From NCBI RefSeq assembly GCF_028898845.1, contig NZ_CP118574.1, positions 8,853,001 to 8,917,000 of the forward strand: 64,000 nt of DNA. The letters run 5' to 3'. The position numbers were made by a program, and so were the translations under genes. This document shows, one piece after another, positions 6,643-58,026 of the stretch; within the stretch, counting starts at the first letter, position 1, and each line of letters begins with the position of its first letter. The notes under the pieces are model-generated. The model was not told the DNA's origin. It saw nothing but the letters and a program-made list of their open reading frames with translations, and searched no databases. The DNA is from Streptomyces sp. WZ-12. GTDB lineage: Bacteria > Actinomycetota > Actinomycetes > Streptomycetales > Streptomycetaceae.

Positions 6643-6685
6643 GGCCGGACATCCTGTCACACGCGGGGAAAACCGACCCCGTAGA

Positions 6686-6830: not shown

Positions 6831-6879
6831 CCGTACCCCGACTCCGGCCCGGTTCCGGTGAGAGGATCTTCCCTTCGTC

Positions 6880-9740: not shown

Positions 9741-9749
9741 GAGAGCGAG

Positions 9750-9900: not shown

Positions 9901-9936
9901 CGTTCCGTGTTGTCCACGAGGATGGAGCAGACACGC

Positions 9937-22105: not shown

Positions 22106-22315
22106 ATGCAGATCGTCGTTGACCTCACGCGCTGCCAGGGCTATGCACAGTGCGTGTTTCTCGCGCCGGAGATGTTCCAGTTGCACGGGGAGGAAGGGCT
22201 GCTCTACGCCCCGTCCATCCCCGAGGACCAGGAGGAGCGCGTGCGCCAGGCCGTGGCCGCGTGCCCGGTCCAGGCCATCCTCATGGGCGAGGGAGTGAAG
22301 GCCGATGGACAGTGA
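22106..22315 (+). CDS. [3Fe-4S] ferredoxin, P450 redox partner
   Basis: 69 residues from ATG 22106, with GGTGGGG just upstream; a GTG at 22082 would add eight residues. Cysteines are C10, C16 and C53 (C-x5-C ... CP), the arrangement of actinobacterial single-cluster 3Fe-4S ferredoxins that feed cytochromes P450. The last 11 bases overlap the reductase gene, and a P450 gene follows, so the three form one electron-transfer chain: NAD(P)H to reductase to ferredoxin to P450. Confidence 0.93.
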   Translation: MQIVVDLTRCQGYAQCVFLAPEMFQLHGEEGLLYAPSIPEDQEERVRQAVAACPVQAILMGEGVKADGQ

Positions 22316-23675: not shown

Positions 23676-23706
23676 ACCCATCAGCCAACCCGAGGAGCCC
23701 GATCCC

Positions 23707-40615: not shown

Positions 40616-42310
40616 TCAGACTCTCAGTGGGGTGCCCGCCTTGCCTGCCGGGGCGGGTTGCGGTGCGTACACAGTGCTGTAGGAGTTCGCGGCCAGAATC
40701 CTGTCCAACCCTCCCGCCGCCACGAGTCCTTGGTAGACCAGCTCGACAACGGCATCCTCACAGGACTCCTCGCAGGGGCTGGCTATGGCCGAGAGCAGCC
40801 ACCCTGCGATGTCGTGGATGACGTCGGGCTGGTGCCAGCCGTCCGCGTAGTCCAGCCCCGAACCGTCCGCGCCACGGCTCGCGGTCAGACGGATGGCGCT
40901 GGCCGCACAGGGCTCGTGGACCGGGCAGTTGTGCAACTGCCGGAGCATGTCCTGCCAGGTCGTCGCCGAGGCGTCGAACGCGGTCGCGTGGATGCTCGGG
41001 CGCCGAGCTGCTGCCATGCCGGCAGCGGACTGCGCCCTGGCCAGTCTCTCCGCGAACCGGTGTCGTTCTCCTACCAATCCGTACATATCGGAGGTCAGTA
41101 GCACGAGACGCGGCGGCCAGTCCCGTGCTGCGCAGATCAGCCCGCGCACTCCCATGATCAGGGCGACTCCGGGGCCCATCCAGCGGGCGGTGTTCCCGGT
41201 CTCGTCCATTTCGATGAACTGGTCGTAGATGTCCGCGACCGCTTTGGAGTGTCCGCTGGACAGTAACCGGCGTCGAACGGCCGGGATGTCCGCCTCCATA
41301 GCCGGGAGCGGCCCCCACTCAATGACGTTGCTCAGCATCCCGGTGGCCTTGACCAACTCCCGGGCACCGGGCGGCAGTTGTACCTGATACCACGGAACGT
41401 TCCCCCAAGCCAGATCCGTGATGGCCCGGACCTTCAAGGCGTTGCGCACCAGGTGCATCCTCCGGCACAGCAGGATCAGGTCATCGAGGGTGTGCGTGGC
41501 GTCGTCGGGGATCTCGTGCAGTCGCGTCTCGATGTGCTTCCGCAGCTCACGGCCCTGGTCCCAGTTGCCTTCCCCATAGTCGGAGAAGCCGTAGTAGAGG
41601 TTGATCAGCGTCGCGAGCTGCTGGACGTTCTCGGACTCTCCCCGTCGTCCAAGGCGTGACGTGAGACCCCAACCGAGGTGGATGGACAGGCTGGTGCGTG
41701 GCTTGCCGTCCTCCATCCTCGGAGTCTCCTTCCAAGGGGTGGGGTCGCTGTGGGCGAGGGCGTCGTCCGGTCGTGCATGGGCGATGTGGACGCACGAGTT
41801 CAGGGCGGTGGCGAACCACGCCCCTTTGTGCACCTCCCACTCGAAGCGTGCGCTCTCGCCCTCGGCGTACCCGAGGCCGCACACGGCCAGACCCTGCCGC
41901 AGGCAGGCGTCGAGGTCACCGTTGCGGGCCAGCGCCTCGCGCACCACACCGTGGGCTTCGAGGGACAGGGCGTCATCGGCACCCCACCAGGAAGCATCGG
42001 TGCCGGTGGGACGGGACTTCCCCAGCAGTCTCGCGTACAGGTCGCGCAGAGCGAAGTCGAGGGCGGTGTCCTCCGGGCCGGTGCCCAGAAGAAGTTCGCC
42101 GGAGCGCGCGATCCAGCGGATGCCCGTACACACCAGGCAACCGTCAGAGTGGTTGGAGCGGACTGGGTGGGTGCTGTACGGCGCGTCCTTCCCGAACCGG
42201 GTTGCCGTACAGAGATTGAGGTCGTAGGCCAGCCGGTCGGGCACGAGGGTGCCGTCGGTCTGCCAGGCCGGGGCATCCAGCAATGCTCGCAGGGCGTCCT
42301 TCCGTGCCAT
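40616..42310 (-). CDS. Large orphan protein, unknown function
   Basis: 564 residues from ATG 42310, preceded by GGAGGATTTGCG, a clear ribosome-binding site; the open frame continues upstream without one. No signal peptide, membrane helix or nucleotide-binding motif. There are several Cys/His groups that could bind metal: SNHSDGCLVCTG, RQLHNCPVHEPC, and LLCRRMHLVRN. Many Trp residues (DASWWGADD, NVPWYQVQLPPG, CAARDWPPRLVLL) suggest a globular enzyme or sensor. Codon bias is weaker than in the flanking operons. It is tail-to-tail with the conservon. I do not recognise the family. Confidence 0.75.
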   Translation of the reverse strand: MARKDALRALLDAPAWQTDGTLVPDRLAYDLNLCTATRFGKDAPYSTHPVRSNHSDGCLVCTGIRWIARSGELLLGTGPEDTALDFALRDLYARLLGKSRPTGTDASWWGADDALSLEAHGVVREALARNGDLDACLRQGLAVCGLGYAEGESARFEWEVHKGAWFATALNSCVHIAHARPDDALAHSDPTPWKETPRMEDGKPRTSLSIHLGWGLTSRLGRRGESENVQQLATLINLYYGFSDYGEGNWDQGRELRKHIETRLHEIPDDATHTLDDLILLCRRMHLVRNALKVRAITDLAWGNVPWYQVQLPPGARELVKATGMLSNVIEWGPLPAMEADIPAVRRRLLSSGHSKAVADIYDQFIEMDETGNTARWMGPGVALIMGVRGLICAARDWPPRLVLLTSDMYGLVGERHRFAERLARAQSAAGMAAARRPSIHATAFDASATTWQDMLRQLHNCPVHEPCAASAIRLTASRGADGSGLDYADGWHQPDVIHDIAGWLLSAIASPCEESCEDAVVELVYQGLVAAGGLDRILAANSYSTVYAPQPAPAGKAGTPLRV

Positions 42311-44181: not shown

Positions 44182-44751
44182 TCACGGTGCCGATCCCGTC
44201 GGGGGCTCGGCGACCGGCGCCACCCGCGGCCGGGCCAGCCGGCGGTAGTCCTCCGTGTCCAGGGCGAGGGACAGGTGCAGTGCGGCCGCGTTGAAGAAGA
44301 TCTCGCGGTGGGCGAGGAGAGCGGGGTCGACGATCAACTCCAACTCGGGGTCGAAGGAGAAGGGGACGATGGAGCCGCTGACGCAGCCGGAGAGGCGTTC
44401 CGCGGTGGCCTGGTCGGCGAAGGACACGTGGCGCGCCTCGTAGAGTTCCTTGACCCGGTCGAGGTCCACCCGCCGGTCGCCGGGGACGACGGCGAGGGCG
44501 AACCGCGAGGACTTCTTGGTGACCTTGACGCGCATGACGATGCACTTGGCCGCCTGGTCCAGGGGGTGCCCGCGGAGCTCGCTGACGATGTCCGTGCGGC
44601 CCTCTGGGGCGTGTTCGATGAGGCGGTGGCGGGCCCCGCCGTCCTGGAGCAGGGCCAGGAGCCGGTCCGACGTGGCGACGGGGGTGTCGTCCGCCGGCGG
44701 GGTCGGGTCGGCCGGTGCGTGGGTTTCGGGGGAGAACGTGTCTGTCGCCAT
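44182..44751 (-). CDS. YbaK/EbsC-family aminoacyl-tRNA-editing-like protein
   Basis: 189 residues. The core (about 25-165) matches the YbaK/ProX deacylase fold: RLIEHAPEGRTDIVSELRGHPLDQAAKCIVMRV, with the conserved lysine of AAKCIV, then ALAVVPGDRRVDLDRVKEL and the GxxPF-like SGSIVPFSFDPELELIVDPAL loop. Relatives hydrolyse mischarged Cys- or Ala-tRNA. It is the last gene of a five-gene biosynthetic operon, its ATG overlapping the oxygenase stop. It might clear tRNAs mischarged with the pathway's unusual amino acid, or use an aminoacyl intermediate (inference). Confidence 0.88.
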   Translation of the reverse strand: MATDTFSPETHAPADPTPPADDTPVATSDRLLALLQDGGARHRLIEHAPEGRTDIVSELRGHPLDQAAKCIVMRVKVTKKSSRFALAVVPGDRRVDLDRVKELYEARHVSFADQATAERLSGCVSGSIVPFSFDPELELIVDPALLAHREIFFNAAALHLSLALDTEDYRRLARPRVAPVAEPPTGSAP

Positions 44752-45560
44752 CAGCCCCACACCACCGCGGAGTTGAGCGACTCGTCGGCGAAGCCCATGA
44801 AGAAGCCCATGGTGAGGCGGTCGGTGCCGGTGACCCGCTCGATGGAGTGGTACTGCGTGGGGTTGATCAGGTACACGTCCCCGGTCTGCGGCTTGAACTC
44901 GTGGCAGGGGTGGCCCTCGACCACGGTCTCGTCGTACCCGAGGCCACCTTGGATCTTGTACGTCTCGTCCGCGGGCTGCCAGGGCTTGCGGTACATCCGC
45001 AGCTCGCCGCCCTCGTCGCACTCCTGGAGGCAGACCACGCAACTCAGTTGGTAGGCAAGGCCGGTGAGGGCGATGCCGGTGCCCCGGGCGTCCCGCATGA
45101 TGTTGTCGTTGTGCAGCGGGTTGCGCACGCCGTCGGCGTGGATGCGGACGACGGAGGCGGCGTAGTCGCGGCCGTCCGGTTCCTGCGCGACGGAGACCGC
45201 ATCCAGGCCGAGGGCGTTCTTCAGGCCGGTGCGGACCTGGCCGGCGAGGTCGAAGTCGGCGGAGTCGAGCATGTTGCGGGCCTCGTCGGCCGCCTGGAAG
45301 TAACCGTCCAGGTCGTTGAGGTACTTGGCCAGGTAGGGGCCGATGGTGGTGAGGGCGCCGTTGGCGTAGCTCGTGGTGGAGGCGTTGGCGAAGAGCTTGC
45401 CGACGCGGGTCAGGTTGTCGGCGAACGCCTCGGCGGGCAGCAGGTTGCGCAGTACGACCACCGCGCTCTCGCCGTGGGCGAGTTGGCGGAGCAGGTCGGG
45501 GTCGGGCCGCTCGGCGGCGGTGTCGATGACGACGCGGGTCCAGGTGTCAGTCGTGGGCAT
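44751..45560 (-). CDS. 2-Oxoglutarate/Fe(II)-dependent oxygenase-like protein
   Basis: 269 residues. The metal triad is likely H150 and D152 in NPLHNDN and H238 in QYHSIERV, with R248 (GTDRLTMGFF) as the 2-oxoglutarate anchor. The jelly-roll strands around it (AYQLSCVVCLQECDEGGELRMY, GDVYLINP) fit. It probably hydroxylates or desaturates an amino-acid or peptide substrate in this operon. It overlaps the amidotransferase gene by 14 bases upstream and the YbaK gene by a base downstream. C174/C177 and C181 cluster close to the active site and are not usual for the family. Confidence 0.85.
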   Translation of the reverse strand: MPTTDTWTRVVIDTAAERPDPDLLRQLAHGESAVVVLRNLLPAEAFADNLTRVGKLFANASTTSYANGALTTIGPYLAKYLNDLDGYFQAADEARNMLDSADFDLAGQVRTGLKNALGLDAVSVAQEPDGRDYAASVVRIHADGVRNPLHNDNIMRDARGTGIALTGLAYQLSCVVCLQECDEGGELRMYRKPWQPADETYKIQGGLGYDETVVEGHPCHEFKPQTGDVYLINPTQYHSIERVTGTDRLTMGFFMGFADESLNSAVVWG

Positions 45561-46314
45561 GGATCGGCGCTCCTTCGAGGTCGTAACGGTTGCGGGGGCC
45601 GGAGCTCGTGGTCCACGGGATCTCCGTGACGCTGTCGGGCTTCAGCGGCTCCCAGTGGTCCGCGGGGGCGAGGTCGGGGATCACCTCCGAGGAGATCACC
45701 AGCGAGCGTGCGGTCTGGAGCCGGAACATGCCGAAGTAGCGCGGCGCCATGGTGTCCGGCGAGGTCCAGTGGATGACGTACGCCCCGTAGGGGTTCACCG
45801 CGATGGCGTTGCCCGAACTCCCGCCCCGGGGAATGGCGTTGAGGCGGTCCAGGGTCTCCTGCTCGTCCAGTCGGCGGGTGCCGGCGGGGACGATGTAGTC
45901 GAAGTACTCGCGGGAGTCGAACTCCGAACCCTCCATGCCGAGCAGGCGGTGGACCGTCGGCTGGAAGCCGTTGTGCAGGAACAGCCAGGGGAAGGAGCCG
46001 GCGCGCTCCAACGGGTGGGTGAACTGCGGCCCGTGGTTCTTGGCCAGAGTGGCGTGCCGGGCGTGCACGGCCAGGAAGTCGGTGGAGAGGTGCGGCACGG
46101 GCGATTCGTGGCTGCTCTCGGCGAGCGGACGGACGTCCCGGTGGCGCCCCAGTCCGAACGGGGCGTCCGGCTGGCGCCAGACCGCGCCCCAGCCGTTGGG
46201 GTGCACGTCGGTGGGTCCGTCGTGGTCGGCGGTGCGGCCACAGCTCATCGCCTCGGCGGCGGCCAGGATGTCCGCGGCGCGGAAGTCCCCTGTGGCCACG
46301 ATGAGTCGGCACAT
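45547..46314 (-). CDS. Stand-alone class II glutamine amidotransferase
   Basis: 255 residues. The chain begins Met-Cys, so after Met removal C2 is the N-terminal nucleophile (MCRLIVATGDF). The family residues are present: HPNGWGAVW, FLAVHARHAT and FLHNGFQP for glutamine binding and the oxyanion hole. Such proteins release ammonia for a partner synthetase; similar single-domain members include EgtC, which cuts gamma-glutamyl amides instead. With the PP-loop enzyme two genes upstream, the pair could act as a split asparagine-synthetase-like amidating enzyme (inference). It lies 6 bases after the ATP-grasp gene. Confidence 0.88.
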   Translation of the reverse strand: MCRLIVATGDFRAADILAAAEAMSCGRTADHDGPTDVHPNGWGAVWRQPDAPFGLGRHRDVRPLAESSHESPVPHLSTDFLAVHARHATLAKNHGPQFTHPLERAGSFPWLFLHNGFQPTVHRLLGMEGSEFDSREYFDYIVPAGTRRLDEQETLDRLNAIPRGGSSGNAIAVNPYGAYVIHWTSPDTMAPRYFGMFRLQTARSLVISSEVIPDLAPADHWEPLKPDSVTEIPWTTSSGPRNRYDLEGAPIHAHD

Positions 46315-46320
46315 GGCGGG

Positions 46321-47613
46321 TCAGCCTCGCAATCGGTGGGCGACGAGTGAATGCAGCAGTGCGGGGACGCGGTCGGCGGGGCCGCCGCTGACGACCACCC
46401 GGCCGGCGGAGCCGGTGTGCCTGGCGAGGTCGGAGGCGAGCGCCGGCAGGTCGTCCGCGGACAGTGCGGAGCGGTCCGGCGGGGGAGCGGCGCGGTGGAT
46501 CTCGATCGTGATGCCCGGCTCCTGGAGGGCCTCGGCGGCGGCCAGTTCGGCTTCGGACACGGCCGATATCTGGCCGGCGATGCCACCGGTGCCGACGGGC
46601 GGTGACGACGGTCCTACCGGTGTCGCGTCGCCGAGGTGACTGGCGAAGGCCAGTTCCGCCCAGTCGGCGCCGGTCGCCTTCTCGACGAGCGCCACCAGCC
46701 CTCCGCCGGAGAGCCGGAACCCCATCTCCACGAAGACCGGGCCGGTCGGGCCCTGGAGGACATCGAGGTGGAAGGGGCCGGCGCGGTAGCCGGCGGCGTC
46801 CAGGCATGCCTGGGCCAGCGCGTGCAGCTCGGGCGGTGCGTCCGTGCCTGGCCGGGCCACGTGGCCGACCTCCCGGAAGCCCGACAGCCCGGGCTCGCCA
46901 GGCACCTCCTCCAGACTGGTGAGTTTCTCGCAGACGCTCAGCAGTACGGCACTGCCTTGGTGGGCGACGCCCTGGAGCGAGAGTTCGGGGCCCTTGACGA
47001 ACTCCTCCGCCACGATGCCGGAGAACGCGCCGCCGCCGTAGTTGGCCAGCGCGCGGATGCGGTCCAGGGCGCGGCGGCGCTGCGCCGCGCCGTCCACGAG
47101 AAGTACGCCGAGCCCACCACCGCCGTCCGCCGGCTTGATGACCTGCGGGAAGCCGAGCCCATCGGCCGCGCCCTGGTCGCCCAAGTCCAGTGAGAGGAAA
47201 CGGGGTTGGGCCACCTGAGGGGCGCCGCGCAGCAGGGCCTCGCGCTGCTCGCGCTTGTCCAGCGGCCGGAAGTCGACGCCGGCGCCCGGCCACGGTGCCA
47301 CCCGCAACGCCTCGGCCAGGGCGAACCCAGCGTAGACGTAGCGCTCGAAGCCGGTCAGGACCAGGCCGGGCGCCACCCCGGCCGCGGTGAGTGCGGCGCG
47401 GATCGCGTCCGGGTCCTGCGGCCGGGCCACAGCCACCTCGACGTCGAACTCCCGCCGGCCGAGCAGCCGTCGCCAGCGCAGATAGGCGGGCGTCTCGACC
47501 AGCACCGCCCGCATGCCGCGGCGGCGCGCGCAGTCCAGGTACGGGTCCAGGCCGTCCCGGGTGGCGCCTACTTGTACGAAGTCCCCCGGGGGATTGCCGG
47601 TCGTCACGGTCAC
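46321..47613 (-). CDS. ATP-grasp ligase (carboxylate-amine ligase type)
   Basis: 430 residues from GTG 47613, overlapping the PP-loop gene's stop (GTGA). The ATP-grasp core is clear: GFPQVIKPADGGGGLGVLL (phosphate-loop lysine and glycine-rich loop), GIVAEEFVKGPELSLQGVAH, and the Mg-binding end GPVFVEMGFRLSGGG. It activates a carboxylate as acyl phosphate and couples it to an amine, as in dipeptide ligases of natural-product clusters. Substrates are unknown; a second ATP-grasp gene lies at 58686 in the phosphonate operon. Confidence 0.92.
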   Translation of the reverse strand: MTVTTGNPPGDFVQVGATRDGLDPYLDCARRRGMRAVLVETPAYLRWRRLLGRREFDVEVAVARPQDPDAIRAALTAAGVAPGLVLTGFERYVYAGFALAEALRVAPWPGAGVDFRPLDKREQREALLRGAPQVAQPRFLSLDLGDQGAADGLGFPQVIKPADGGGGLGVLLVDGAAQRRRALDRIRALANYGGGAFSGIVAEEFVKGPELSLQGVAHQGSAVLLSVCEKLTSLEEVPGEPGLSGFREVGHVARPGTDAPPELHALAQACLDAAGYRAGPFHLDVLQGPTGPVFVEMGFRLSGGGLVALVEKATGADWAELAFASHLGDATPVGPSSPPVGTGGIAGQISAVSEAELAAAEALQEPGITIEIHRAAPPPDRSALSADDLPALASDLARHTGSAGRVVVSGGPADRVPALLHSLVAHRLRG

Positions 47614-49136
47614 CGGCCGGAGAGCAGTTCGGGCACGACGGGGCCGTCGGCGCTGTGCCGGGTGTGGACGATCTGCTTGTGCGGGTCGCCTTCGAGGATG
47701 GCGTCGATGAGTTCGCCGCCGACGGGGGTGGGGCTGGGCAGACGGAGCGAGCTGGTGTACAGGACCTTGAGCTGATCCACCGTCAAACCCGTGATTTCTT
47801 CCAGGTGTTCGGTGACCTGGGCCGCCGCGACGCCGGTGGTCGGGGTCGAGCCGCCCAGGAGTTCGTGGATGAGCGGGGCGTGCGGGAGGAGGTCCGGCTG
47901 CTCGGCGGTGAGGTACGCCTCCAGGTTCGTGCCCTTCTCGGTGAACGGCGCGTGGACCATGGCGACGAGCTGCTCCTCGGTGAGGCCGTATGCCTGGGCC
48001 GCGTAGGCGTCCATGGCGGCCCGCATCTGGTCGGCCCGGCCCTCGTAGCGCTCCCGCATGAGCGTGACGAGCTGCGGCGGGAACTCCTTCTTGTGCATGA
48101 GGGAGATGGCGAACTCGACGTAGCCGGCGAGCCCTTCGGCGTAGGACTGGCCGTAGCGGTGCTCGCACTTGAGGGCGCGCAGGTGCGCCATCAGCGCGGG
48201 GTTGCCGCAGTCGGACTCGGTGAAGCTGAAGGCGATGTCGTCGAAGCGGAAGCCGAGGTGCTCGGTGAGCAGCTCCCAGTGGTCGCCGGAGGCGTAGGCG
48301 GTGTCGTCGTAGATCGAGAAGAACTGCAGGCCGGTGCGGACGTCGGTGGTGATGGCGTGCTCGGCGATGACCTCCGGGGCGTCGGGGCCGTGGATGTCGG
48401 TGAAGTACGCCTGCGAGATGTTGTTGAGCGAGGCGAGGAAGCCCCGGAATCCGGCGCGCATGTCGCGCGGCGGCTGGAGGCCGAACCGCCGGGCGAGCCG
48501 GGTGACCCACAGGTAGTAGTCCCGCTGCTCCTGTTGGGAGTCGCCGGTGATGATCAGGTCGACGCCGCCGTCGTACCCCGCGGCCAGGCCGAAGGAGTTG
48601 ACCATGCTCAGGTTGCAGGCGTTGCAGAACGTCGGGCGGGCGTCCGCGGCCGTGCGGTGGCCGGTCATCAGGATGTCGAGGCGGTTGCGGCCCACGACGT
48701 CGTCCGTCTGCGGCAGCGTGGCGTCGAAGGGGCGCACCTGCTGGCCGTCGATCAACAGCAGCTCGCAGTCGGGGTCGTTCAGCAGGTGCAGGGAGCGGTA
48801 GGCCCGGTCGATGTTGTCCATCACGGCCTGCGGCATGCCCGCGTGCCGGTTGGTGGCGACCCGCATCGTGAAGGTCCGGCCGTGCTCCTGGGAGAGGATG
48901 AGCTGCATGGTCCGGACGAAGGCGAGGGTGTAGGAGCTGTCCTTGCCGCCGCCGTAGGCCACCAGGACGACATTGCGGGCGAGTTGGGCCTTGTCGGGGA
49001 GGGCGTCGTAGAGGCGGGCGGCGCAGCGGACGGCGCCCTCGTAGTTCTCCTGGGACAGTACGGCCCGCAGCTCCCGGAGGGCCGTGGCATGGTCGGGCGC
49101 CGCTGAGGGCGCGGTCGTGGACACGTCAGTCGTCAT
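47610..49136 (-). CDS. PP-loop ATP-pyrophosphatase-like enzyme
   Basis: 508 residues from ATG 49136, with AGAGGTG about 10 bases upstream; TTG 49145 lies too close to that site. The PP-loop is VAYGGGKDSS (residues 60-69), a variant of SGGxDS that adenylates a carboxyl, amide or carbonyl. RPTFCNACNLSM carries C171-x2-C174, as in PP-loop enzymes of the TtcA or N-acetyl-sugar amidotransferase type that bind zinc or Fe-S. The long helical C-terminal half is not recognised. First gene of the leftward operon. Possible roles are amidation with ammonia from the class II amidotransferase, or sulfur insertion. Confidence 0.82.
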   Translation of the reverse strand: MTTDVSTTAPSAAPDHATALRELRAVLSQENYEGAVRCAARLYDALPDKAQLARNVVLVAYGGGKDSSYTLAFVRTMQLILSQEHGRTFTMRVATNRHAGMPQAVMDNIDRAYRSLHLLNDPDCELLLIDGQQVRPFDATLPQTDDVVGRNRLDILMTGHRTAADARPTFCNACNLSMVNSFGLAAGYDGGVDLIITGDSQQEQRDYYLWVTRLARRFGLQPPRDMRAGFRGFLASLNNISQAYFTDIHGPDAPEVIAEHAITTDVRTGLQFFSIYDDTAYASGDHWELLTEHLGFRFDDIAFSFTESDCGNPALMAHLRALKCEHRYGQSYAEGLAGYVEFAISLMHKKEFPPQLVTLMRERYEGRADQMRAAMDAYAAQAYGLTEEQLVAMVHAPFTEKGTNLEAYLTAEQPDLLPHAPLIHELLGGSTPTTGVAAAQVTEHLEEITGLTVDQLKVLYTSSLRLPSPTPVGGELIDAILEGDPHKQIVHTRHSADGPVVPELLSGR

Positions 49137-49578
49137 GACGGACAAGCACCTCTTTCAACCGGACTAACGGTGGGCCGGCACCATGAGCAGGCGCGGGTGA
49201 GGGAGAAACTGGTCTGATGGCCTGGCGGTTGCGCCAGAAGAAGGGAGGAAAGCAAGGTGGCCGGGCGGGATCACCGGTCAACTCGACGCTGAGAGAAGGG
49301 AATTCGGCTCAGCGCGGCCAGGTGCCTGCACGGGAAACACCCGATGACACACCGGGGGATCTGGTGCGGTCCCGTAGGGACGCCCCATCAGGTGTGCGGG
49401 AGAAAAGGAAAGCCATCCGGAATGTGCCCCCGTCCGGAAACTTCAGTGCTTACGGACTTGCTGTCCGGGGCCCACTCTTGATCACGAATCTCAGCCTTGT
49501 CAATCATCTCGTTTCAGGATGTGGACCGTCCGAGTAATCGTTAAATCGTGAACAGGGCGGCGGGAGTTGGCCTGTTGT
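49137..49578 (-). other. Promoter region of the leftward operon
   Basis: 442 bases without a convincing gene. On the minus strand a perfect -35 TTGACA lies at 49503-49498, but no good -10 follows at 17 bases. The leader would be over 300 nucleotides. G+C drops around 49490-49550, as expected for a control region. Confidence 0.5.
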
Positions 49579-50508
49579 TCACCCGGCGTCGCGGGCCGAT
49601 TGGCCGGAATGAGTTCCCGGCCAACGCCCGCGCAATGCCGCCAATGCGGCGTGGAGAGCGGGGCGACGGCCGGCCTGGGAGCGCCAAACGGCCGAAACTC
49701 GACGGTGGGGCGGGGGCTGCATCGGGACGACGCGAACGGTGGACGGCAGGTCGCCGCGGCCCAACCGGGGCAGCATCGTCACGCCCAACCCGGCCGTCAG
49801 AAGGGCGATTTGGGACTCGTATTCCTCGATCTGATAGGCAATGTCCGGTTCGATGCCGAGATCGGAGAAACAACGCACCAGCCACTCATGGCACATGGCG
49901 CCGGAGCCCTGCCCGATCCACCGCTCTTCCCGCAGGTCGTACGGGGTGAGCGCGGCCCGGTCGGCGAGCGGGTGGCCGGCCGGCAGCGCCACGTCGGCGA
50001 TGTCCTCGCCCAGTTCGACGACCGACAGCGAGGCCGGCAGCGTCAGCGGGGTGTTGTGCCAGTCGTGCACCACCGCGAGATCCGCCTCGCCGCGCACCAC
50101 CAGGCTGACGGCGCGGTTGGGGTCGGATTCCAGCAACCGGCAGTCCAGCGCGGGGTAGCGCCCGGCCAGGCCGGCGAGTGCGGCGGCGACGAAGCCGCGG
50201 CAGGCGGTGGGGAAGGCGGCGAGCACCAGGCGCCCGGTGGGCTGATCGCGCTGTTCCTCCAGGCGCGAGCGGGTCCGCTCCAACACCGCCACGACCTCAT
50301 CGGTGGCCTCCGCGAGCAGCCATGCCGCGGGGGTGAGCTCCACCTTGCCGCCCTGCCGGTCGAGCAGCGCGGAGCCGGTCTCGCGCTCCAACTTGGCGAT
50401 CTGCTGGGAGATGGCGGACGGGGTGTAGCCCAGTGCCGAGGCGGCACCCGTCATCGTGCCGTGGGTGGCCACGGCGCGCAGGGCGCGCAGGCGGTTGAGG
50501 TCGAACAT
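49579..50508 (-). CDS. LysR-family regulator, divergent from an EamA exporter
   Basis: 309 residues. The helix-turn-helix is at the N-terminus (MFDLNRLRALRAVATHGTMTGAASALGYTPSAISQQIAKLE), followed by an effector-binding domain (LVLAAFPTACRGFVAAAL, ADLAVVHDWHNTPLTL, GLGVTMLPRLGRG). Nearest in type to ArgP/IciA-like or HexR-like LysR members that control amino-acid exporters. It is divergent from the EamA transporter with 104 bases between, the classical LysR-target layout. It sits between the two biosynthetic operons and may also act on them. Confidence 0.92.
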   Translation of the reverse strand: MFDLNRLRALRAVATHGTMTGAASALGYTPSAISQQIAKLERETGSALLDRQGGKVELTPAAWLLAEATDEVVAVLERTRSRLEEQRDQPTGRLVLAAFPTACRGFVAAALAGLAGRYPALDCRLLESDPNRAVSLVVRGEADLAVVHDWHNTPLTLPASLSVVELGEDIADVALPAGHPLADRAALTPYDLREERWIGQGSGAMCHEWLVRCFSDLGIEPDIAYQIEEYESQIALLTAGLGVTMLPRLGRGDLPSTVRVVPMQPPPHRRVSAVWRSQAGRRPALHAALAALRGRWPGTHSGQSARDAG

Positions 50509-50540
50509 GAAGCGATGCTAATACCCCACCTTCAGCAGCC

Positions 50541-50562
50541 TTCGCTGGCCCTGACGTGCGAA
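50541..50562. promoter_or_regulatory. Candidate LysR operator
   Basis: TTCGC (50541-50545) and GCGAA (50558-50562) form an interrupted palindrome of 22 bases, containing a T-N11-A-like spacing, in the middle of the LysR/EamA intergenic region. Confidence 0.45.
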
Positions 50563-50612
50563 GACTGTTGAGATGGGCGTCCAGAAGGAGCACGTCCACA
50601 GGAGCCATCGGC

Positions 50613-51518
50613 ATGAAGCCCGTACACGTTGCCTTGGCGGTGGTCGTAGCCGCCGTATGGGGCGTCAACTTCGTCGTGATCGACGTGGGGTTGCGCGATT
50701 TCCCCCCGCTGCTCTTCTCCGCGGTGCGATTCCTGTTGGCCGCCCTGCCGGCGGTCTTCTTCGTCGGACCGCCGAGGGTTCCCTGGCGCTGGGTCATCGC
50801 GGTCGGCGTCGCGCTCGGCATCATGAAATTCGGCATGTTGTTCATCGGCATGCACGAGGGGCTGCCCGCGGGCCTGGCCTCCCTGGTGCTCCAGGGGCAG
50901 GCGGTGTTCACCGTGTTGTTCGCCGCCGTCCTGCTCAAGGAGCGCCCCCGACGGGTGCAGATCGTCGGCATGGCCATCGCCGCCGCGGGCATCGTGCTCG
51001 CCGGGCTGGACTCGACGGCCGGCACGCTCGGCGGATTCCTGCTGGTCGTGGGCGCGGGAGCGTGCTGGGGCCTGTCGAACATCGCGATGCGCAGGGCCAG
51101 TCCGCCGGACACCTTCCGCTTCATGGTCTGGGTGAGCGTCGTGCCGCCCATCCCGCTCGCGCTCCTCTCCATCCCCTTCGAGGGCTGGGACGCGGACCTC
51201 CGCGCGCTACAGCACCTCAACGTCAGCGGAGTGGGTGCCGCGCTCTATGTGGCGTGGGGGGCAACGCTGTTCGGATTCGCCGCATGGGGATATCTGCTGC
51301 GTACCTATGACGCCCCGACCGTGGCGCCGTTCTCGTTGCTCGTCCCGATATTCGGCCTGGCCTCCGCCTGGGTTTTCCAGGGGGAGCGCATGACGGCACT
51401 GACCTTCTGTGCCACCGGCCTCGTCATCGCCGGTATTGCGGTCGGAATGCTGCGCCGCCCGAAGAGGGCGGTAGCGGTGGAGAGCGAGCCGACGGCCGCC
51501 CCGGTCGCGGCGCCCTGA
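50613..51518 (+). CDS. EamA/DMT-family transporter
   Basis: 301 residues from ATG 50613, with AGGAG 9 bases upstream. Ten hydrophobic helices in two EamA repeats are visible (VALAVVVAAVWGVNFVVID to LVIAGIAVGML). WGVNFVVI and FLLAALPAVFF are typical of the RhaT/DMT amino-acid and metabolite exporters. Its divergent LysR partner and its position between two biosynthetic operons suggest export of an amino acid or small product, possibly for self-protection (inference). A perfect terminator hairpin follows. Confidence 0.93.
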   Translation: MKPVHVALAVVVAAVWGVNFVVIDVGLRDFPPLLFSAVRFLLAALPAVFFVGPPRVPWRWVIAVGVALGIMKFGMLFIGMHEGLPAGLASLVLQGQAVFTVLFAAVLLKERPRRVQIVGMAIAAAGIVLAGLDSTAGTLGGFLLVVGAGACWGLSNIAMRRASPPDTFRFMVWVSVVPPIPLALLSIPFEGWDADLRALQHLNVSGVGAALYVAWGATLFGFAAWGYLLRTYDAPTVAPFSLLVPIFGLASAWVFQGERMTALTFCATGLVIAGIAVGMLRRPKRAVAVESEPTAAPVAAP

Positions 51519-52006: not shown

Positions 52007-52534
52007 ATGTCCGTAAAGACCGCCGAGCCGCCGGTGTCCGCGCCGGCCGACGCCGCCGAGGCCGTGGTGCGTGAATTCCTCGACCAGGGGTTCACCCACT
52101 TCACCGGCGTCCCCTGCTCGTTGCTCAAGGGCATCTTCCGTTACCTGGAGAGCCCGGCCAGCCCCGCCGCCTACCTGCCCGCACCCCGCGAGGACAGCGC
52201 GCTCGGCGTCGCCTCCGGGCTGGCCGTGGCCGGCGAACGCCCGGTCGTCCTGATGCAGAACTCCGGGCTCGGCTACTCCCTGAACGTCCTCACCTCCTTC
52301 AACCTCATCTACGACGTCCACCTGCCGCTCGTCGTGAGCTGGCGCGGCCACGACGGCAACGACGCGGTCGAGCACGACGTCATCGGCCGCGAACTGCCCC
52401 GCCTGCTGGACGTCTTCGACCTACCGTGGACCGTGCTCGACCCACAGGCACCCCGCCGCTCGGTCCGGGAATGCCTGGCGCACCACGACGGCGGCCGCCG
52501 CACCTCCGTCCTCGTCGTCCGGGAAGGGGTGTGA
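52007..52534 (+). CDS. Phosphonopyruvate decarboxylase, alpha (N-terminal) subunit
   Basis: 175 residues from ATG 52007, with CGAGGGG 9 bases upstream. It matches the N-terminal PYR half of thiamine-diphosphate decarboxylases: FTGVPCSLLKGIFRYLE, PAPREDSALGVASGLAVAGERPVVLMQNSGLG (with the catalytic Glu of REDSA) and SWRGHDGNDAVEHDVIG. The C-terminal half is the next gene, the split arrangement known for sulfopyruvate decarboxylase and for some phosphonate clusters. It converts unstable phosphonopyruvate to phosphonoacetaldehyde, pulling PEP mutase forward. First gene of the operon. Confidence 0.93.
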   Translation: MSVKTAEPPVSAPADAAEAVVREFLDQGFTHFTGVPCSLLKGIFRYLESPASPAAYLPAPREDSALGVASGLAVAGERPVVLMQNSGLGYSLNVLTSFNLIYDVHLPLVVSWRGHDGNDAVEHDVIGRELPRLLDVFDLPWTVLDPQAPRRSVRECLAHHDGGRRTSVLVVREGV

Positions 52535-52536
52535 CC

Positions 52537-53124
52537 ATGCTGGACATCCGCGAGGCCATCACGGCCCTCCTCGACCGCGACCCCACCGCCCTCTACGTGT
52601 CGACCTGCGGGTACATCACCCGCGACGTCTACAACATCGACGACCGCCCGGGGAACTTCTACCTCGTGGGCTCGATGGGCATGGCGGCCCCGATCGGCCT
52701 CGGCGTGGCCCTCGCCCGCCCCGACCGCCGCGTGGTGGTCCTCGACGGAGACGGGTCCTTCGCCATGAACCCCGGCTGCCTGCCGATGATCGCCGAACAC
52801 CGCCCCGACCTGCTGCACGTCGTCCTCGACAACGGTGCGCACGAGAGCACCGGCGGACAGCGCACCGCCGCACTGGGCGACCCCGCAGCCCTGGCCCGCG
52901 CCGCCGGCTACCCCACCGCCCACACCGCCGACACCCTCGACGGACTCGCCGCCGCCTACCCCGCGCGCGGCAACGCCGGCCCCACGCTGCTGCACCTGCG
53001 CTGCCACCCGCGCACCCACAAGGCCGGCAGGCGCGTCGAGTTGACGCCCCAGGAACTCGTGACGCGCTTCCGCACCGAGGCCGCCGCCCCCGTGCCGGCC
53101 GCCGTCGAAGGGAGCCCGCTGTGA
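52537..53124 (+). CDS. Phosphonopyruvate decarboxylase, beta (C-terminal) subunit
   Basis: 195 residues, beginning two bases after the alpha stop. It is the PP domain of the same enzyme: FYLVGSMGMAAPIGLGVAL and VVVLDGDGSFAMNPGCLPMIAEHRPDLLHVVLDNGAHES, the GDG-x(about 25)-N Mg/thiamine-diphosphate motif. VGSMG is typical of phosphonopyruvate and sulfopyruvate decarboxylases. The active site forms between this and the alpha subunit. A four-base overlap with the next gene. Confidence 0.93.
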   Translation: MLDIREAITALLDRDPTALYVSTCGYITRDVYNIDDRPGNFYLVGSMGMAAPIGLGVALARPDRRVVVLDGDGSFAMNPGCLPMIAEHRPDLLHVVLDNGAHESTGGQRTAALGDPAALARAAGYPTAHTADTLDGLAAAYPARGNAGPTLLHLRCHPRTHKAGRRVELTPQELVTRFRTEAAAPVPAAVEGSPL

Positions 53125-54131
53125 AGAAGCCCGTCCTGCTCGACTGCACGCTGCGCGACGGCGGCAACCAGAACAACTGGGAATTCACCCCGACCGACGT
53201 GCGGACCCTCGTCACCACCCTGGACGCCGCCCGCATCGACGTCATCGAGGTCGGCTACCGCGGCGGCTCCGGCAGTCGCAGCAGCGCCGACGCTGGCATC
53301 ACCGCCCACTGCACCCCCGAATTCCTCGCCGCGCTGCCCGAGGTCCACCACGCCGAACTGGCCGTCATGGTCGTACCGACCGTCTGCCCCGTGCAGGCCA
53401 TGGACGACCTCCCCGACAGCCCCATCGGCATGGTCCGCATCGCCGCGTACCCGTGGAACATCGCCGGCGTACCGGAGTACGTCCGCGCCGCACGCAACCT
53501 CGGCCTGCGCACCGGCGTGAACCTGATGGCCGTCAGCTACGCCGACCCCGCCGAACTCACCGAAATCGCCCGCACCATACGCGCCGAACAGCCCGACGTG
53601 TGCTACGTCGCCGACTCCTTCGGCGCTCTGACCCCGGACGACGTCCGCACCCGCGTCGCGGTGCTGCGCGAACACCTCGACTGCCCGATCGGCCTGCACG
53701 CGCACAACAACCTCGGCCTGGCCGCGGCCAACGCCCTCGCCGGCCTGGACGCCGGAGTGGACTGGCTGGACGCCTCGCTGTGCGCCATGGCCCGCGGCGC
53801 CGGCAACCTCGCCACCGAACAGGCCGCGGCGTTCCTCACCGCCTGGCCCAAGTACGCCACCCACACCGACCTCGCCCAGGTCTGCGAGGCCGCCGAATAC
53901 GTCGCCGAACAGGTCCTGCCGCGGCCGATGGTGGTGCGCCGCCAGGAGATCGCCGCCGGCATCAACGACCACCACTACTACTACCAAGACCGCATCGACA
54001 AGATCAGTGCCCGCTACGGGCTGGACCCGTGGGAGGTCGGCCGCCGCATCGGCGCCACCCGACCCCGCAAGGTGCTCGACGACGTGGTGGCGGACGTCTG
54101 CCACGAGATGACCGGAGGACACACCGCATGA
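53121..54131 (+). CDS. DRE-TIM metallolyase-type aldolase (RhiG-like)
   Basis: 336 residues from GTG 53121. The DRE-TIM signature reads DCTLRDGGNQNNW (8-20); the metal His pair is in GLHAHNNLGLAAAN, and VDWLDASLCAMARGAGN is also conserved. It is nearest the 4-hydroxy-2-oxovalerate aldolase/HMG-CoA lyase group. As I recall, RhiG of rhizocticin synthesis is such an enzyme and joins phosphonoacetaldehyde to oxaloacetate (with loss of CO2) to give 2-keto-4-hydroxy-5-phosphonopentanoate. Its position directly between Ppd and PepM makes the same reaction likely here. Confidence 0.85.
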   Translation: MKKPVLLDCTLRDGGNQNNWEFTPTDVRTLVTTLDAARIDVIEVGYRGGSGSRSSADAGITAHCTPEFLAALPEVHHAELAVMVVPTVCPVQAMDDLPDSPIGMVRIAAYPWNIAGVPEYVRAARNLGLRTGVNLMAVSYADPAELTEIARTIRAEQPDVCYVADSFGALTPDDVRTRVAVLREHLDCPIGLHAHNNLGLAAANALAGLDAGVDWLDASLCAMARGAGNLATEQAAAFLTAWPKYATHTDLAQVCEAAEYVAEQVLPRPMVVRRQEIAAGINDHHYYYQDRIDKISARYGLDPWEVGRRIGATRPRKVLDDVVADVCHEMTGGHTA

Positions 54132-55057
54132 CCGAGCAACACCGCACCACCGCGCGCGGCACCCGCCCCACCCCCGCCGAGGCACTGCGCGCCGCGCTGC
54201 ACGCCGAGCGCCCGGCCCGCGCCATGGGCGCCCACAGCCCGCTCAGCGCCCGCCTCGCAGAGGAGGCCGGCTTCGAGGTCATCTGGTCCAGCGGCCTGGA
54301 GATCTCCGCCACCGCCGGCGTACCGGACGCCAACATCCTGGCCATGCCGCAGTGCCTGGAGGCCGCCGCCGCCCTCGCCCAGGCGGTCTCCACCCCGGTC
54401 CTCGCCGACTGCGACTCCGGCTTCGGCAACGTCAACAACGTGATCCACATGGTGCGCGCCTACGAGGCCCGCGGCATCGCCGGCGTCTGCATCGAGGACA
54501 AGCAGTTCCCCAAGCTCAACAGCTTCATCGAGGGCAACCAGGACCTCGCACCGCTGGACGACTTCGCCGCCAAGATCAAGGCCGCCACCGAGGTCCGCCG
54601 CGACCTGGTCGTCGTCGCCCGCCTGGAGGCGCTCATCTCCGGCCGGGGCATGGCCGAGGCGCTCCGCCGCGCCGAGGTCTACGAACGCGCCGGCGCCGAC
54701 GCCCTGTTGATCCACTCCAAGATCTCCGACCCCGGCGAGGTGTTCGCCTTCCGCGAGGCATACACCGGCGACCTCCCCGTCATCGTCGTCCCCACCACCT
54801 ACCACCAGGTGACCATCGAGGAACTCCAACAGCGCGGCTTCGCCATGGCCATCTACGCCAACCAGGCACTGCGCAGCTCGCTGCGCGCCATGCGGGAGAC
54901 CCTCACCAAGATCATCCAGGACGGCTCCACACACGGCATCGAGGACGGCATCGCACCGCTGAAGGAGATCTTCGACCTCCAGCACATGCCGCAGATGCTC
55001 GAACAGCAGGCCCACTACGAGGCGTTGGGCCGCGAGCTCGCGGAGGCCGGCCGATGA
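54128..55057 (+). CDS. pepM: Phosphoenolpyruvate phosphomutase
   Basis: 309 residues. The diagnostic PepM motif EDKxFPKxNS is present as EDKQFPKLNS (123-132), which separates it from isocitrate lyase and phosphonopyruvate hydrolase relatives. SSGLEISATAGVPD and DCDSGFGNVNNV hold the substrate and Mg residues. It rearranges PEP into phosphonopyruvate, forming the C-P bond; this is the committed step of nearly all natural phosphonates. It lies in an operon directly after the decarboxylase and aldolase genes and overlaps both neighbours by four bases. Confidence 0.97.
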   Translation: MTEQHRTTARGTRPTPAEALRAALHAERPARAMGAHSPLSARLAEEAGFEVIWSSGLEISATAGVPDANILAMPQCLEAAAALAQAVSTPVLADCDSGFGNVNNVIHMVRAYEARGIAGVCIEDKQFPKLNSFIEGNQDLAPLDDFAAKIKAATEVRRDLVVVARLEALISGRGMAEALRRAEVYERAGADALLIHSKISDPGEVFAFREAYTGDLPVIVVPTTYHQVTIEELQQRGFAMAIYANQALRSSLRAMRETLTKIIQDGSTHGIEDGIAPLKEIFDLQHMPQMLEQQAHYEALGRELAEAGR

Positions 55058-56166
55058 CCACCGCACCCCGTGCCACCACCGCACTGCGCCTGTCCTTCCT
55101 CGACACCTGCCTGGACATCGAGCCGGCCCCCGGCGCCACCATCGACGAGGCCCTGCGCTTCCTCGACACCCACGTCGCCTTCGCCCCCCGACCCGCGGAC
55201 GCCGAACCCCCGTTGGCCACGCTCCGCACCGCCCCGGCACCCGACGACCGCCACACACCCCCGGACGGCACGCACTGGGAGGACATCTACCTCCGCAAGA
55301 GCGCCAGCGACTTCTTCACCGTCCCGGCCCGCCGGGCCCAGGCCGACGGCCGCACCTACGTCGAGTGCACCAAGACCGGCACCCGCTTCGCCTTCGACCG
55401 CGCCGCCCGCACCATCGACGTCGCCGTGACCGCGGCCGGCGCCATGGACCTCGTCGAACTCGTCCGCGACCTGGTCCTCAAGGACCAGGAGAACCGCGGC
55501 GCCGCCGTGCTGCACGCCACCGCCGCCGTCAAGAACGGCACCGCCGTGCTCGTCACCGGCGCCAAGGGCGCGGGCAAGAGCACCATCCTGCTGGAACTGG
55601 TCGAGCACTTCGGCTACCGGATCATGAGCGGCGACAAGACCGTCGTGCACGAACAGCCCGACGGGACCACCCTGGCCGCCGGCTGGCCCGACTACCCCCA
55701 CCTCGGCTACGGCACCATCGCCAAGTACCCGGGCCTGAAGGAGATCGCCGGCATCGCGGGCGACTACCAACCCACGGCCGGCCAGGCGTTCTCGCCGATC
55801 GGCAAGTTCGCCGTGGACCCCTACGGCTTCCGCGAGCGCTTCCCCAGCGCCCCCCTCGGCCTCGCCGTCCCGGTCACCGGCATCATCCACCCCAACATCG
55901 GCCCCGGCGACCACACCGTCCTCGCCCCCTTCCCGACCGACCCCGCCGAGCGCACCGAGGCACTGGCCGCCAACATCGAATCGGCCTTCGACGGCGCCAA
56001 CGCCGGCTGGCACCACTACCTCGACGACGGCCGGGCCCAGCACACCGAACGCCGCGCCCGCATCGCCGCCGAACTCGCCAAGGCACCGGCCTGGACCCTC
56101 ACCGGCCCCGGCGACCTCACCCCCGACAACACCCCCGGACCACTGGCACACGGGGGAGCGGCATGA
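55054..56166 (+). CDS. HPr-kinase-like P-loop protein of the phosphonate operon
   Basis: 370 residues. A P-loop GAKGAGKST (169-177) is preceded by GAAVLHATAAVKNGTAVLVT, and followed by GYRIMSGDKTVVHEQPDG, as in HprK-like small-molecule kinases. The first 140 residues are a separate alpha/beta domain. In rhizocticin-type loci a kinase-like protein lies at the same place (after PepM) and has been proposed to phosphorylate the 4-hydroxyl so that phosphate can be eliminated to give the alkene; the same is inferred here. Overlaps both neighbours. Confidence 0.8.
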   Translation: MTTAPRATTALRLSFLDTCLDIEPAPGATIDEALRFLDTHVAFAPRPADAEPPLATLRTAPAPDDRHTPPDGTHWEDIYLRKSASDFFTVPARRAQADGRTYVECTKTGTRFAFDRAARTIDVAVTAAGAMDLVELVRDLVLKDQENRGAAVLHATAAVKNGTAVLVTGAKGAGKSTILLELVEHFGYRIMSGDKTVVHEQPDGTTLAAGWPDYPHLGYGTIAKYPGLKEIAGIAGDYQPTAGQAFSPIGKFAVDPYGFRERFPSAPLGLAVPVTGIIHPNIGPGDHTVLAPFPTDPAERTEALAANIESAFDGANAGWHHYLDDGRAQHTERRARIAAELAKAPAWTLTGPGDLTPDNTPGPLAHGGAA

Positions 56167-56591
56167 TCGAACTCACCGTCGACAGCACCGGCCTGAACTC
56201 TCACTACGACCTCACCGACGAGATCGCCGCACACCTGCGCGCCTCCGACGCCGGCGACGGACTGGCCGGCGTCTTCGCGCACGGCAGCACGGTGGGCCTG
56301 ACCATCATGCGCTACGAACAGGGCGCCGTGACCGACCTGTTGCGGACCCTGGAGCGGATCGCGCCCGACGACGGCAACCGCTATCTGCACGAGCTCACCA
56401 CCGGCGACCCCAACGGCTTCTCGCACCTGAAGTCCTCGCTGCTCGGCACCAGCGTGCTGGTCCCGTTCCGGGACGGTGAACCCGCCATGTCACCGACCCA
56501 CCGCGTGGTGCTCTTCGACTTCGACCTCAAGCCCGCCACCCGCCGGATCTTCCTCGACCCGCCCCGCCCGCACCGGAAGGACCCCGCATGA
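56163..56591 (+). CDS. UPF0047/YjbQ-family protein of the phosphonate operon
   Basis: 142 residues, full family length. The conserved UPF0047 features are present: VFAHGSTVGLTIMRYEQGAV, LERIAPDDGNRYLHE, and GFSHLKSSLLGTSVLVPFRDGEP. Enzymes of this family (YjbQ) have weak thiamine-phosphate synthase activity, so they can bind phosphorylated carbinols and cleave C-O bonds. That would suit elimination of phosphate from the kinase product encoded just before, giving the 3,4-alkene of APPA (inference). A homologue occurs in rhizocticin-type loci. Confidence 0.88.
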   Translation: MIELTVDSTGLNSHYDLTDEIAAHLRASDAGDGLAGVFAHGSTVGLTIMRYEQGAVTDLLRTLERIAPDDGNRYLHELTTGDPNGFSHLKSSLLGTSVLVPFRDGEPAMSPTHRVVLFDFDLKPATRRIFLDPPRPHRKDPA

Positions 56592-57739
56592 AGCTCCGCC
56601 TGGCCACCCCCGGCCCCACCGAGGTCCCGCAGCGACTGCTGCTCGCCGGCGCCCGCGAGATCATCCACCACCGCTCGACGGAGATGGCCGGTCTCCTCCA
56701 CGAGATCAACGAGGGCCTGCCCCCGCTGTTCGGTACCGAACACCCCGTCTACACCATCGCCGCCTCCGGCACCGGCGCGATGGAGGCATCCGTCGCCAAC
56801 TGCTTCTCGCCCGGCGACGAGGTCCTCGTCGTCTCCAACGGCTACTTCGGCGAGCGCTTCGAGGCGATCTGCACCGACTACGGACTGACCGTCCACACCG
56901 TGCGCAGCGACTGGGGCACCAGCGCCGACCCCGCTCAGGTGGCCGCCGCCTACGCCGAACACCCCGCGATCCGCGGCGTGTTCACCGTCTACAGCGAGAC
57001 CTCCACCGGCGCCCTCAACGACGTCGAGGCCATCGCCCGGATCTTCCGGGACACCGACGTCATCGTCGTCGTCGACGCGATCAGCGGCCTGCTCGTCCAC
57101 CCCCTCCCGATGGACGCATGGGGCCTGGACGTCGTGCTCGCCGCCTCCCACAAGGGCTTCATGCTCCCGCCCGGCCTGGCCTTCGTCGCCCTCTCCGACA
57201 AGGCGTGGACGGCCGTGGAACGCGGCTCGGGCCCCGCCTACTACTGGTCCTTCGAGCGGCTGCGCCACTTCTACCCGATGTCCTCCTCGTCCCCGGCCGT
57301 CTCACTGCTGCTCGCCCTGCACGAGTCGCTGAAGATGCTCAACGAGGAGGGACTCCCGGCCTTCCAACGCCGGCACGCCGCACTCGGCGAGGCCGCCGGC
57401 CGGGCCCTGACGGCCCTCGGCTTCCAGCCCTTCATCCAAGAACCACACCGGCGCAGCCACGTCATCACCTCGGCGCTCGCGCCCGAAGGCATCGACACCG
57501 GCGAGCTGTTGAAGACCCTGTCCACCCGGCACGGCGTCACCATGACCGGCGGCCAGGCCCACCTCAAGGGCAAGCTCATCCGGGTCGGCCACGTCGGCGC
57601 CGCCGACCCCCTGGACCTGTGCGCCCTCTTCGGCGCCGTCGAGATGGCCCTGCTCGAACTCGGGCACCGCTTCACCCCCGGCACCGGCACCGGCGAAATC
57701 ATCCGCGCGCTGGCCGACTTCCCCCACGAGGAGAGCTGA
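56588..57739 (+). CDS. Class V PLP-dependent aminotransferase
   Basis: 383 residues. The PLP lysine is K189 in LAASHKGFMLPPG; YTIAASGTGAMEASVAN and VVVDAISGLLVHPLPMDAWG bind the cofactor. It is of the alanine-glyoxylate/2-aminoethylphosphonate aminotransferase type. In this operon it would convert the keto acid made by the aldolase path to the amino acid L-2-amino-5-phosphono-3-pentenoate, or give 2-aminoethylphosphonate from phosphonoacetaldehyde; the order of genes favours the former. Its TGA overlaps the next ATG. Confidence 0.93.
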   Translation: MKLRLATPGPTEVPQRLLLAGAREIIHHRSTEMAGLLHEINEGLPPLFGTEHPVYTIAASGTGAMEASVANCFSPGDEVLVVSNGYFGERFEAICTDYGLTVHTVRSDWGTSADPAQVAAAYAEHPAIRGVFTVYSETSTGALNDVEAIARIFRDTDVIVVVDAISGLLVHPLPMDAWGLDVVLAASHKGFMLPPGLAFVALSDKAWTAVERGSGPAYYWSFERLRHFYPMSSSSPAVSLLLALHESLKMLNEEGLPAFQRRHAALGEAAGRALTALGFQPFIQEPHRRSHVITSALAPEGIDTGELLKTLSTRHGVTMTGGQAHLKGKLIRVGHVGAADPLDLCALFGAVEMALLELGHRFTPGTGTGEIIRALADFPHEES

Positions 57740-58023
57740 TGCTCGTTCTGTTCCAACGTGAGACCTGCCCCGACTGCAAGCCGGTCCGCGAACTCCTGAC
57801 CCGCCTCCAGGTCTCCTACCTCAACATCAACGTGCCCAAGCCCCGTGACGAGCGGCACGAGTTGATCCGGGCCACCGGCAGCAAGTTCATCCCCGCACTC
57901 ATCGACGGCGACACCGTCATCCCGGGCAAGCTGCGGGAGAACGCCGACCTGATCGCCTACCTGGAAAAGCGGTTCGGCGCACCGGACTCCGACGCCCCCG
58001 CCGAGCCGGGAAGCGCCACCTGA
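57739..58023 (+). CDS. Glutaredoxin-like protein of the phosphonate operon
   Basis: 94 residues; ATG shares a base with the previous stop (TGATG). A thioredoxin fold with the active site ETCPDCKPVRELL (C10, C13) and the cis-Pro strand KFIPALIDGDTVIPG, plus LRENADLIAYLEKRF. It may reduce a pathway enzyme, or transfer a thiol conjugate; no redox enzyme in this operon obviously needs it. It resembles the stress-type glutaredoxins/GST N-domains more than thioredoxin. Confidence 0.85.
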   Translation: MLVLFQRETCPDCKPVRELLTRLQVSYLNINVPKPRDERHELIRATGSKFIPALIDGDTVIPGKLRENADLIAYLEKRFGAPDSDAPAEPGSAT

Positions 58024-58026
58024 CCC

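Follow-up and report, generated by a model that had tools for sequence, protein, structure and literature searches.

A conserved five-gene operon around a PP-loop enzyme in Streptomyces sp. WZ-12 and its possible role in making a small amino-acid antimetabolite

The stretch of DNA considered here, 64,000 nucleotides from Streptomyces sp. WZ-12 (contig NZ_CP118574.1, positions 8,853,001 to 8,917,000; hereafter called the window), comes from the region 8.85-8.92 Mb in a genome of 9.55 Mb and raises a question of function: What could be made by a run of five genes encoding a PP-loop enzyme, an ATP-grasp ligase, a class II amidotransferase (GATase), an Fe(II)/2-oxoglutarate oxygenase and a YbaK-type protein for the editing of tRNA? 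An earlier note on this DNA had taken the five genes to form one pathway, given that they overlap or nearly touch, and the coordinates (table 1) bear out the close spacing. The PP-loop gene overlaps the ATP-grasp gene by 4 nucleotides, the GATase gene overlaps the oxygenase gene by 14 and the latter overlaps the YbaK gene by 1, while the largest gap of the run, between the ATP-grasp and GATase genes, measures 6 nucleotides. Pfam confirms the ATP-grasp, oxygenase and YbaK proteins; for the PP-loop and GATase proteins themselves, neither Pfam nor NCBIfam gives a match at E 0.01. Our answer, which we put forward tentatively and at somewhat less than an even chance, is that the operon constitutes a self-contained biosynthetic set for a small amino-acid antimetabolite. 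Most likely it combines two modules, one composed of a PP-loop enzyme of iron-sulphur (Fe-S) type with its ligase and the tRNA-editing protein, the other devoted to hydroxylation and the release of a glutamyl group.

The grouping of the five genes is not due to chance, because the same genes recur in the same order in three other Streptomyces loci (L003, L004, L005), in Micromonospora (L006) and in a further member of the window's genus (L021), with protein identities of 57-90% to the window operon. The neighbourhood check that had been suggested in the earlier note thus finds the set kept together in five further genomes. The unit extends beyond the five genes, for a LysR-type regulator and an EamA-type exporter belong to it in most loci: they are arranged as in the window in L003, L005, L006, L007 and L021, and both are missing from L004. 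In L005 a frame change runs the oxygenase and YbaK genes together into a single open reading frame (ORF); we rejected this apparent fusion and did not use it as evidence. Two other copies are cut or broken, one (L007) having its PP-loop gene split over frames on a contig that stops about 1 kb after it, with LysR and EamA genes ahead, the other (L032) retaining fragments of each of the five. Few genomes carry the PP-loop gene. Counting all subtypes and the window's own genome, where it is single-copy, it turns up in 13 of the 392 genomes drawn from the genus, in 3 of the 394 from the class and in 2 of the 396 from the phylum, these draws overlapping one another.

Table 1. Position and basis of assignment of the genes and regions of the window that are discussed in the text
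Feature	Coordinates	Strand	Basis or motif
PP-loop (ATP pyrophosphatase/AANH) enzyme, 508 residues	47610-49136	minus	GGGKDS, residues 62-67; C171-x-x-C174, C310
ATP-grasp ligase, L-amino-acid-ligase type	46321-47613	minus	PF13535
Class II (N-terminal nucleophile, Ntn) GATase_4-like protein, predicted EgtC-like fold, Cys2 nucleophile	45547-46314	minus	Predicted fold and conserved residues
Fe(II)/2-oxoglutarate oxygenase, WelO5 family, HxD motif	44751-45560	minus	PF22814, E 1e-22
YbaK/ProX-type aminoacyl-tRNA editing protein	44182-44751	minus	tRNA_edit PF04073, E 3.5e-21
LysR-type regulator	49579-50508	minus	Named from the earlier note and similarity between loci
EamA-type exporter, divergent from LysR	50613-51518	plus	45% identity to the annotated EamA of L002
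Leader between LysR and PP-loop genes	49137-49578	minus	TTGAC aligned in 6/6 loci, TTGACA in 5/6
EamA-LysR intergenic region	50509-50612	unstranded	TTAGCATsGCTTCA in 6/6 loci, at LysR start
Phosphonate operon	52007-61108		Split thiamine pyrophosphate (TPP) decarboxylase, HMGL-type aldolase, pepM, HprK-like kinase, UPF0047

Only three cysteines are invariant in the family of the PP-loop enzyme, a CxxC pair and a distant third residue (C171, C174 and C310 in the window protein), and they are found in 136 of 136 sequences. The pair aligns with the CxxC of TtuA-like thiolases, and C310 is positioned like the last cluster ligand of NcsA, a correspondence given by the structural end point VIA only. 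Such sequence features suggest that the PP-loop protein is a [4Fe-4S] amide-activating enzyme resembling CtaC, the Fe-S protein of the AANH family that functions as the thioamide synthetase of closthioamide. In CtaC, too, a PP-loop is combined with a CxxC and a distant third cysteine (C154, C157 and C284), a likeness that is read from published residue numbers. The two clusters both include an ATP-grasp protein (CtaD in that of closthioamide), a sulphur-mobilising gene being recognised in neither, and homologues of CtaC are described near genes for nonribosomal peptide synthetases (NRPS), just as one member of our family (L024:6243-10919) is fused behind a C-A-T module of NRPS, as judged by eye. 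However, the substrate of CtaC is bound to a carrier protein, whereas the window operon has none, so its PP-loop enzyme is likely to act on a free substrate.

The wider family, to which 685 of the scored candidate proteins belong at E 0.001 or better, provides additional information on what this enzyme may do. We examined 21 loci, window included, assigning neighbour families with Pfam on the representatives L002, L022, L025, L028 and L052 and by similarity or eye in the rest; six of them carry operons of the window type. Among the others, L028-L031 combine the PP-loop gene with two ATP-grasps, methylaspartate mutase E, a B12-binding protein, a PF00152 protein resembling class II synthetases, a luciferase-like protein and a transporter, while a plasmid of Methylobacter (L002) has PF00152 and B12-binding proteins, mutase E and EamA. 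Two ATP-grasps occur also in L022 and L023, together with A-domain-like, TauD-type and luciferase-like proteins; L027 has an ATP-grasp and, by eye, an EamA-like transporter; and L052, which L058 resembles by eye, has an A-T protein, an asparagine synthetase and a thioesterase. Because genes for making amides or loading acids recur in this way next to the PP-loop gene, we favour the suggestion that its product acts on an amide rather than making one. Two loci, L025 and L026, retain the PP-loop, ATP-grasp and YbaK genes and have, in the position of the GATase and oxygenase, a carbon-nitrogen hydrolase on the opposite strand. They are relevant also to a different chemistry, in which the PP-loop enzyme would dehydrate the amide to a nitrile (cf. 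QueC/ToyM, ArtA and PesC), leading to a cyano amino acid for which the nitrilase-like protein of these loci would serve in resistance or processing; we consider this improbable.

The second module is defined by loci that contain the GATase without the PP-loop gene. The GATase is present in 5 of 246 genomes of the genus, two of which have the whole operon; the other three (G071, G081 and G091) are absent from the PP-loop matches in the genus. In the loci of these three, L081-L083, the GATase lies near an oxygenase that is 53-59% identical to that of the window (truncated in L081, where the stretch ends) and is accompanied by ATP-grasp-like genes, a transporter and a glutamine-synthetase-like gene, PP-loop and YbaK genes not being found in the 18 kb examined; families were assigned with Pfam on L082, for the glutamine synthetase also on L083, and by similarity in L081. 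Hence, in three of the four PP-loop-free loci, GATase and oxygenase form a separate module. The gene that follows the GATase by 2 nucleotides in L082 best matches gamma-glutamylputrescine synthetase (E 1.4e-126, below the cut-off), and this glutamyl setting fits a role as gamma-glutamyl hydrolase. Indeed, the GATase is probably such a hydrolase, or else a glutaminase, to judge from its predicted structure (pLDDT 91.8), for which Foldseek returns class II GATases with EgtC of ergothioneine biosynthesis first (4zfk, E 1.8e-12, TM 0.67), even if the identity with EgtC is about 20%. Of its residues, Cys2 is conserved in at least 90% of 34 sequences, and Asn115-Gly116 and Asp133 in all; many relatives carry a precomputed PF13230 assignment and one (P0230) shows a weak match to the EgtC model TIGR03442 (E 6.2e-6, below the cut-off). 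The oxygenase appears to be hydroxylase-like, since its iron motif is HxD in 7 of 7 copies; a halogenase of WelO5 type was rejected, its motif being HxG. The ATP-grasp protein has as nearest NCBIfam models PRK02186 and then, third, the dapdiamide synthase DdaF, both matched far below the cut-off. As an observation apart, dehydroquinate-synthase-like and DegT aminotransferase genes accompany the EgtC-like GATase and the WelO5-type oxygenase in L081-L083 (Pfam mostly on L082), and the products of these clusters may perhaps be glutamylated aminocyclitols.

The same PP-loop-free loci bear upon another proposal of the earlier note, that the GATase and PP-loop enzyme represent a split and rewired asparagine synthetase. 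We rejected this possibility: the PP-loop protein has no Asn_synthase domain (Pfam, E 0.01), and the GATase is not its obligate partner, as it occurs without a nearby PP-loop gene in four loci. In Foldseek, human asparagine synthetase ranks 4th-6th among the matches of the PP-loop protein.

What kind of product would need an editing enzyme? The YbaK gene is present in all six window-type operons as well as in L025 and L026, and a Lys and G-x-I-x-P-F are conserved in 9 of 9 aligned copies; Micromonospora L006 has a second copy adjoining EamA. By sequence, the nearest solved structure is YbaK itself (2dxa, E 3e-6), and the match to TIGR00011, the Cys-tRNA(Pro) deacylase model, reaches 49 bits, under the cut-off of 153. 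The YbaK protein probably serves in self-protection, and an editing protein and an exporter inside a biosynthetic operon together suggest that the product can be loaded onto tRNA. The sequence shared at the start of LysR is a candidate regulatory site. The alignment of the leader covers the loci that have a gap between LysR and PP-loop genes, L004 (which has no LysR) not being counted; no RNA family, regulatory RNA or T-box was found in this leader, the one sub-threshold match, at E 0.11, lying elsewhere.

From these elements we infer the substrates, the chemistry, the use of sulphur and the product as follows. The ATP-grasp ligase would form an amide bond between an amino acid and a second molecule, most probably glutamate, producing a glutamyl or peptidyl conjugate. 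The PP-loop enzyme would adenylate the amide carbonyl and, with a [4Fe-4S] cluster to which C171, C174 and C310 would be the ligands, have the amide oxygen replaced, most likely by sulphur, to give a thioamide; the oxygenase would then hydroxylate the conjugate and the EgtC-like Ntn hydrolase take off the glutamyl group. Finally, EamA would export the free amino acid and YbaK would deacylate tRNA mischarged with it, thereby shielding the producer, with the gene set under the control of LysR. The beta-ethynylserine (bes) pathway is comparable, for it makes a free amino-acid antimetabolite by way of a gamma-glutamyl conjugate formed by an ATP-grasp enzyme, and uses Fe(II)/2-oxoglutarate enzymes; to our knowledge it has no PP-loop enzyme, EgtC-like hydrolase or YbaK. 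In the open-licence literature of PMC we found nothing on PP-loop/ATP-grasp clusters, YbaK self-resistance, CtaC together with Streptomyces, or clusters of EamA, ATP-grasp and deacylase, and a search for self-resistance by deacylases gave no such cluster by title among the matches listed.

The route can be generalised, at a lower level of confidence, to the doubtful idea that the whole family consists of unrecognised Fe-S thioamide synthetases, which occur in actinobacteria, myxobacteria and methanotrophs and work alongside a variety of enzymes that make amides (ATP-grasp, AsnA-like, AsnB-like and NRPS), and that the product here would be a free thioamide amino acid poisoning translation, with the tRNA-editing protein as immunity. 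Pfam and NCBIfam match none of the family members tested, and the family seems to be a marker for a class of biosynthetic clusters. Should it indeed thionate amides, thioamide chemistry would be extended to small, carrier-free amino acids and a sequence handle would be available for sulphur-containing antimetabolites; the linked tRNA-editing protein would indicate both translation as the target and a route of self-resistance usable in genome mining.

Several results weigh against the route just outlined. N-acetyl sugar amidotransferases (NASAT; WbpG, WbuX and LpNASAT, 8wex), and not thiolases, are the strongest match of the PP-loop protein in fold and of its family in hhalign profile (E 3e-7, probability 93%), exceeding the TtuA-like match, the E-value of which is weak; of 14 TtuA-like sequences compared, only 2 are over the family cut-off. 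TilS, a negative control, aligned over 28 columns, all of them at the PP-loop, and reached E 8.4e-4, so hhalign values of this order mean little by themselves, and the comparison with a single E. coli sequence of TtcA covered 51 columns only, around the PP-loop. Although a PP-loop is shared with the tRNA thiolases TtuA, NcsA and TtcA, the window family has 34 extra residues between PP-loop and CxxC with respect to TtuA-like proteins and the window protein a spacing of 136, instead of 88-90, between second and third cysteine; it has no terminal zinc-finger cysteines, and the Lys/Arg that follows CxxC in thiolases is here M178, while their GHNxDD motif is changed to GDSxxEQ. No thiolase family model of NCBIfam or Pfam matched the PP-loop protein at E 0.01, and searching solved structures produced only E >0.01 with its sequence and no match with the family profile. 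In the operon we recognised no sulphur-mobilising gene, the neighbourhood not having been searched for one. As to the other proteins, the choice of glutamate as ATP-grasp substrate is conjecture; the window GATase gives no match to any EgtC model (TIGR03442), and when solved structures were searched with the GATase profile, other class II enzymes (1te5, 3mdn and PurF) were listed and EgtC was not; and on a plasmid of Embleya the GATase has neither the oxygenase nor other operon genes within 12 kb. Lastly, one of the five NASATs that are over the family cut-off (L060, its gene adjoining an aminotransferase-like ORF) has its PP-loop followed by a CxxC and then by four more cysteines, of which one lies 128 residues farther along; such a CxxC is missing from the remaining four NASATs. 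Because of this similar set, the cysteine triad, which on sequence grounds argues for an Fe-S cluster, does not alone decide between sulphur and ammonia.

Ammonia would be used if the PP-loop enzyme made an amidine from an amide, as has been proposed for NASATs, or an amide from a carboxylate, the glutaminase being the GATase or, in L025 and L026, the nitrilase-fold protein. The control with TilS and the structure search with the GATase lower our trust in the proposed route slightly and raise that in this variant, which is nonetheless rather unlikely. The N-terminal zinc tetracysteine of NASATs, written CxxC-Xn-[GN]xCxxC in PMC10607449, is absent from the window protein, where Cys38 is the only cysteine before the PP-loop; the NASAT model TIGR03573 has no match at E 0.001 across the window's own genome; and the setting is of amino-acid rather than O-antigen type. 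Moreover, the GATase occurs without a PP-loop gene nearby and the PP-loop gene without a GATase, so they are no obligate pair, and a triad of Fe-S type has no stated role in ammonia transfer. Separately from this, L065 and L066 contain NASAT-like PP-loop domains with an N-terminal tetracysteine and a CxxC within NRPS-like proteins, where they precede what by eye appears to be the C-terminal part of an A domain.

Is the operon then linked to the phosphonate operon that adjoins it? The latter includes, besides the genes in table 1, those for an aminotransferase, a glutaredoxin, a phosphoesterase, an ATP-grasp and a transporter of the major facilitator superfamily. The idea of the earlier note, that the five genes may decorate a phosphonopeptide, finds some support in L005, where the initial eight genes of the phosphonate operon keep their position and order, with 69-85% identity (the last three not being seen in the stretch examined), and in G375, a genome with a broken operon in which a pepM match, itself split (E 1.5e-67), lies at a distance of about 1.1 Mb. 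Yet a strong pepM match is present in only two of the seven genomes having the operon or its uncut start and in none of the other five, several of which are drafts, and the operon has its own regulator and exporter. The co-location is true in two genomes and is not general; phosphonopeptide tailoring as a requirement was therefore rejected, and tailoring of the adjoining product in the window has, in our estimation, a slim chance. The earlier interpretation as a whole is partly supported. In G030, pepM lies about 8 kb from a different subtype of PP-loop gene.

Other features of the window are mentioned for completeness. There are two cobalamin riboswitches, at 9738-9911 and 6673-6842. The former lies just before a run of genes that starts with an aldehyde dehydrogenase (10127) and includes a 3-hydroxyisobutyrate-dehydrogenase-like gene (13877), which looks like valine or isobutyrate catabolism and would be an unusual target for control by B12; the latter precedes a gene for a periplasmic binding protein. 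A protein of 564 residues encoded at 40616-42310 has no Pfam or NCBIfam match at E 0.001. Finally, a pair resembling, by eye, a ferredoxin reductase and a P450 is found both in the window (22305-24921), about 20 kb from the operon, and in L003 (L003:1686-4300), about 3 kb from EamA, with 72-85% identity between the two loci.

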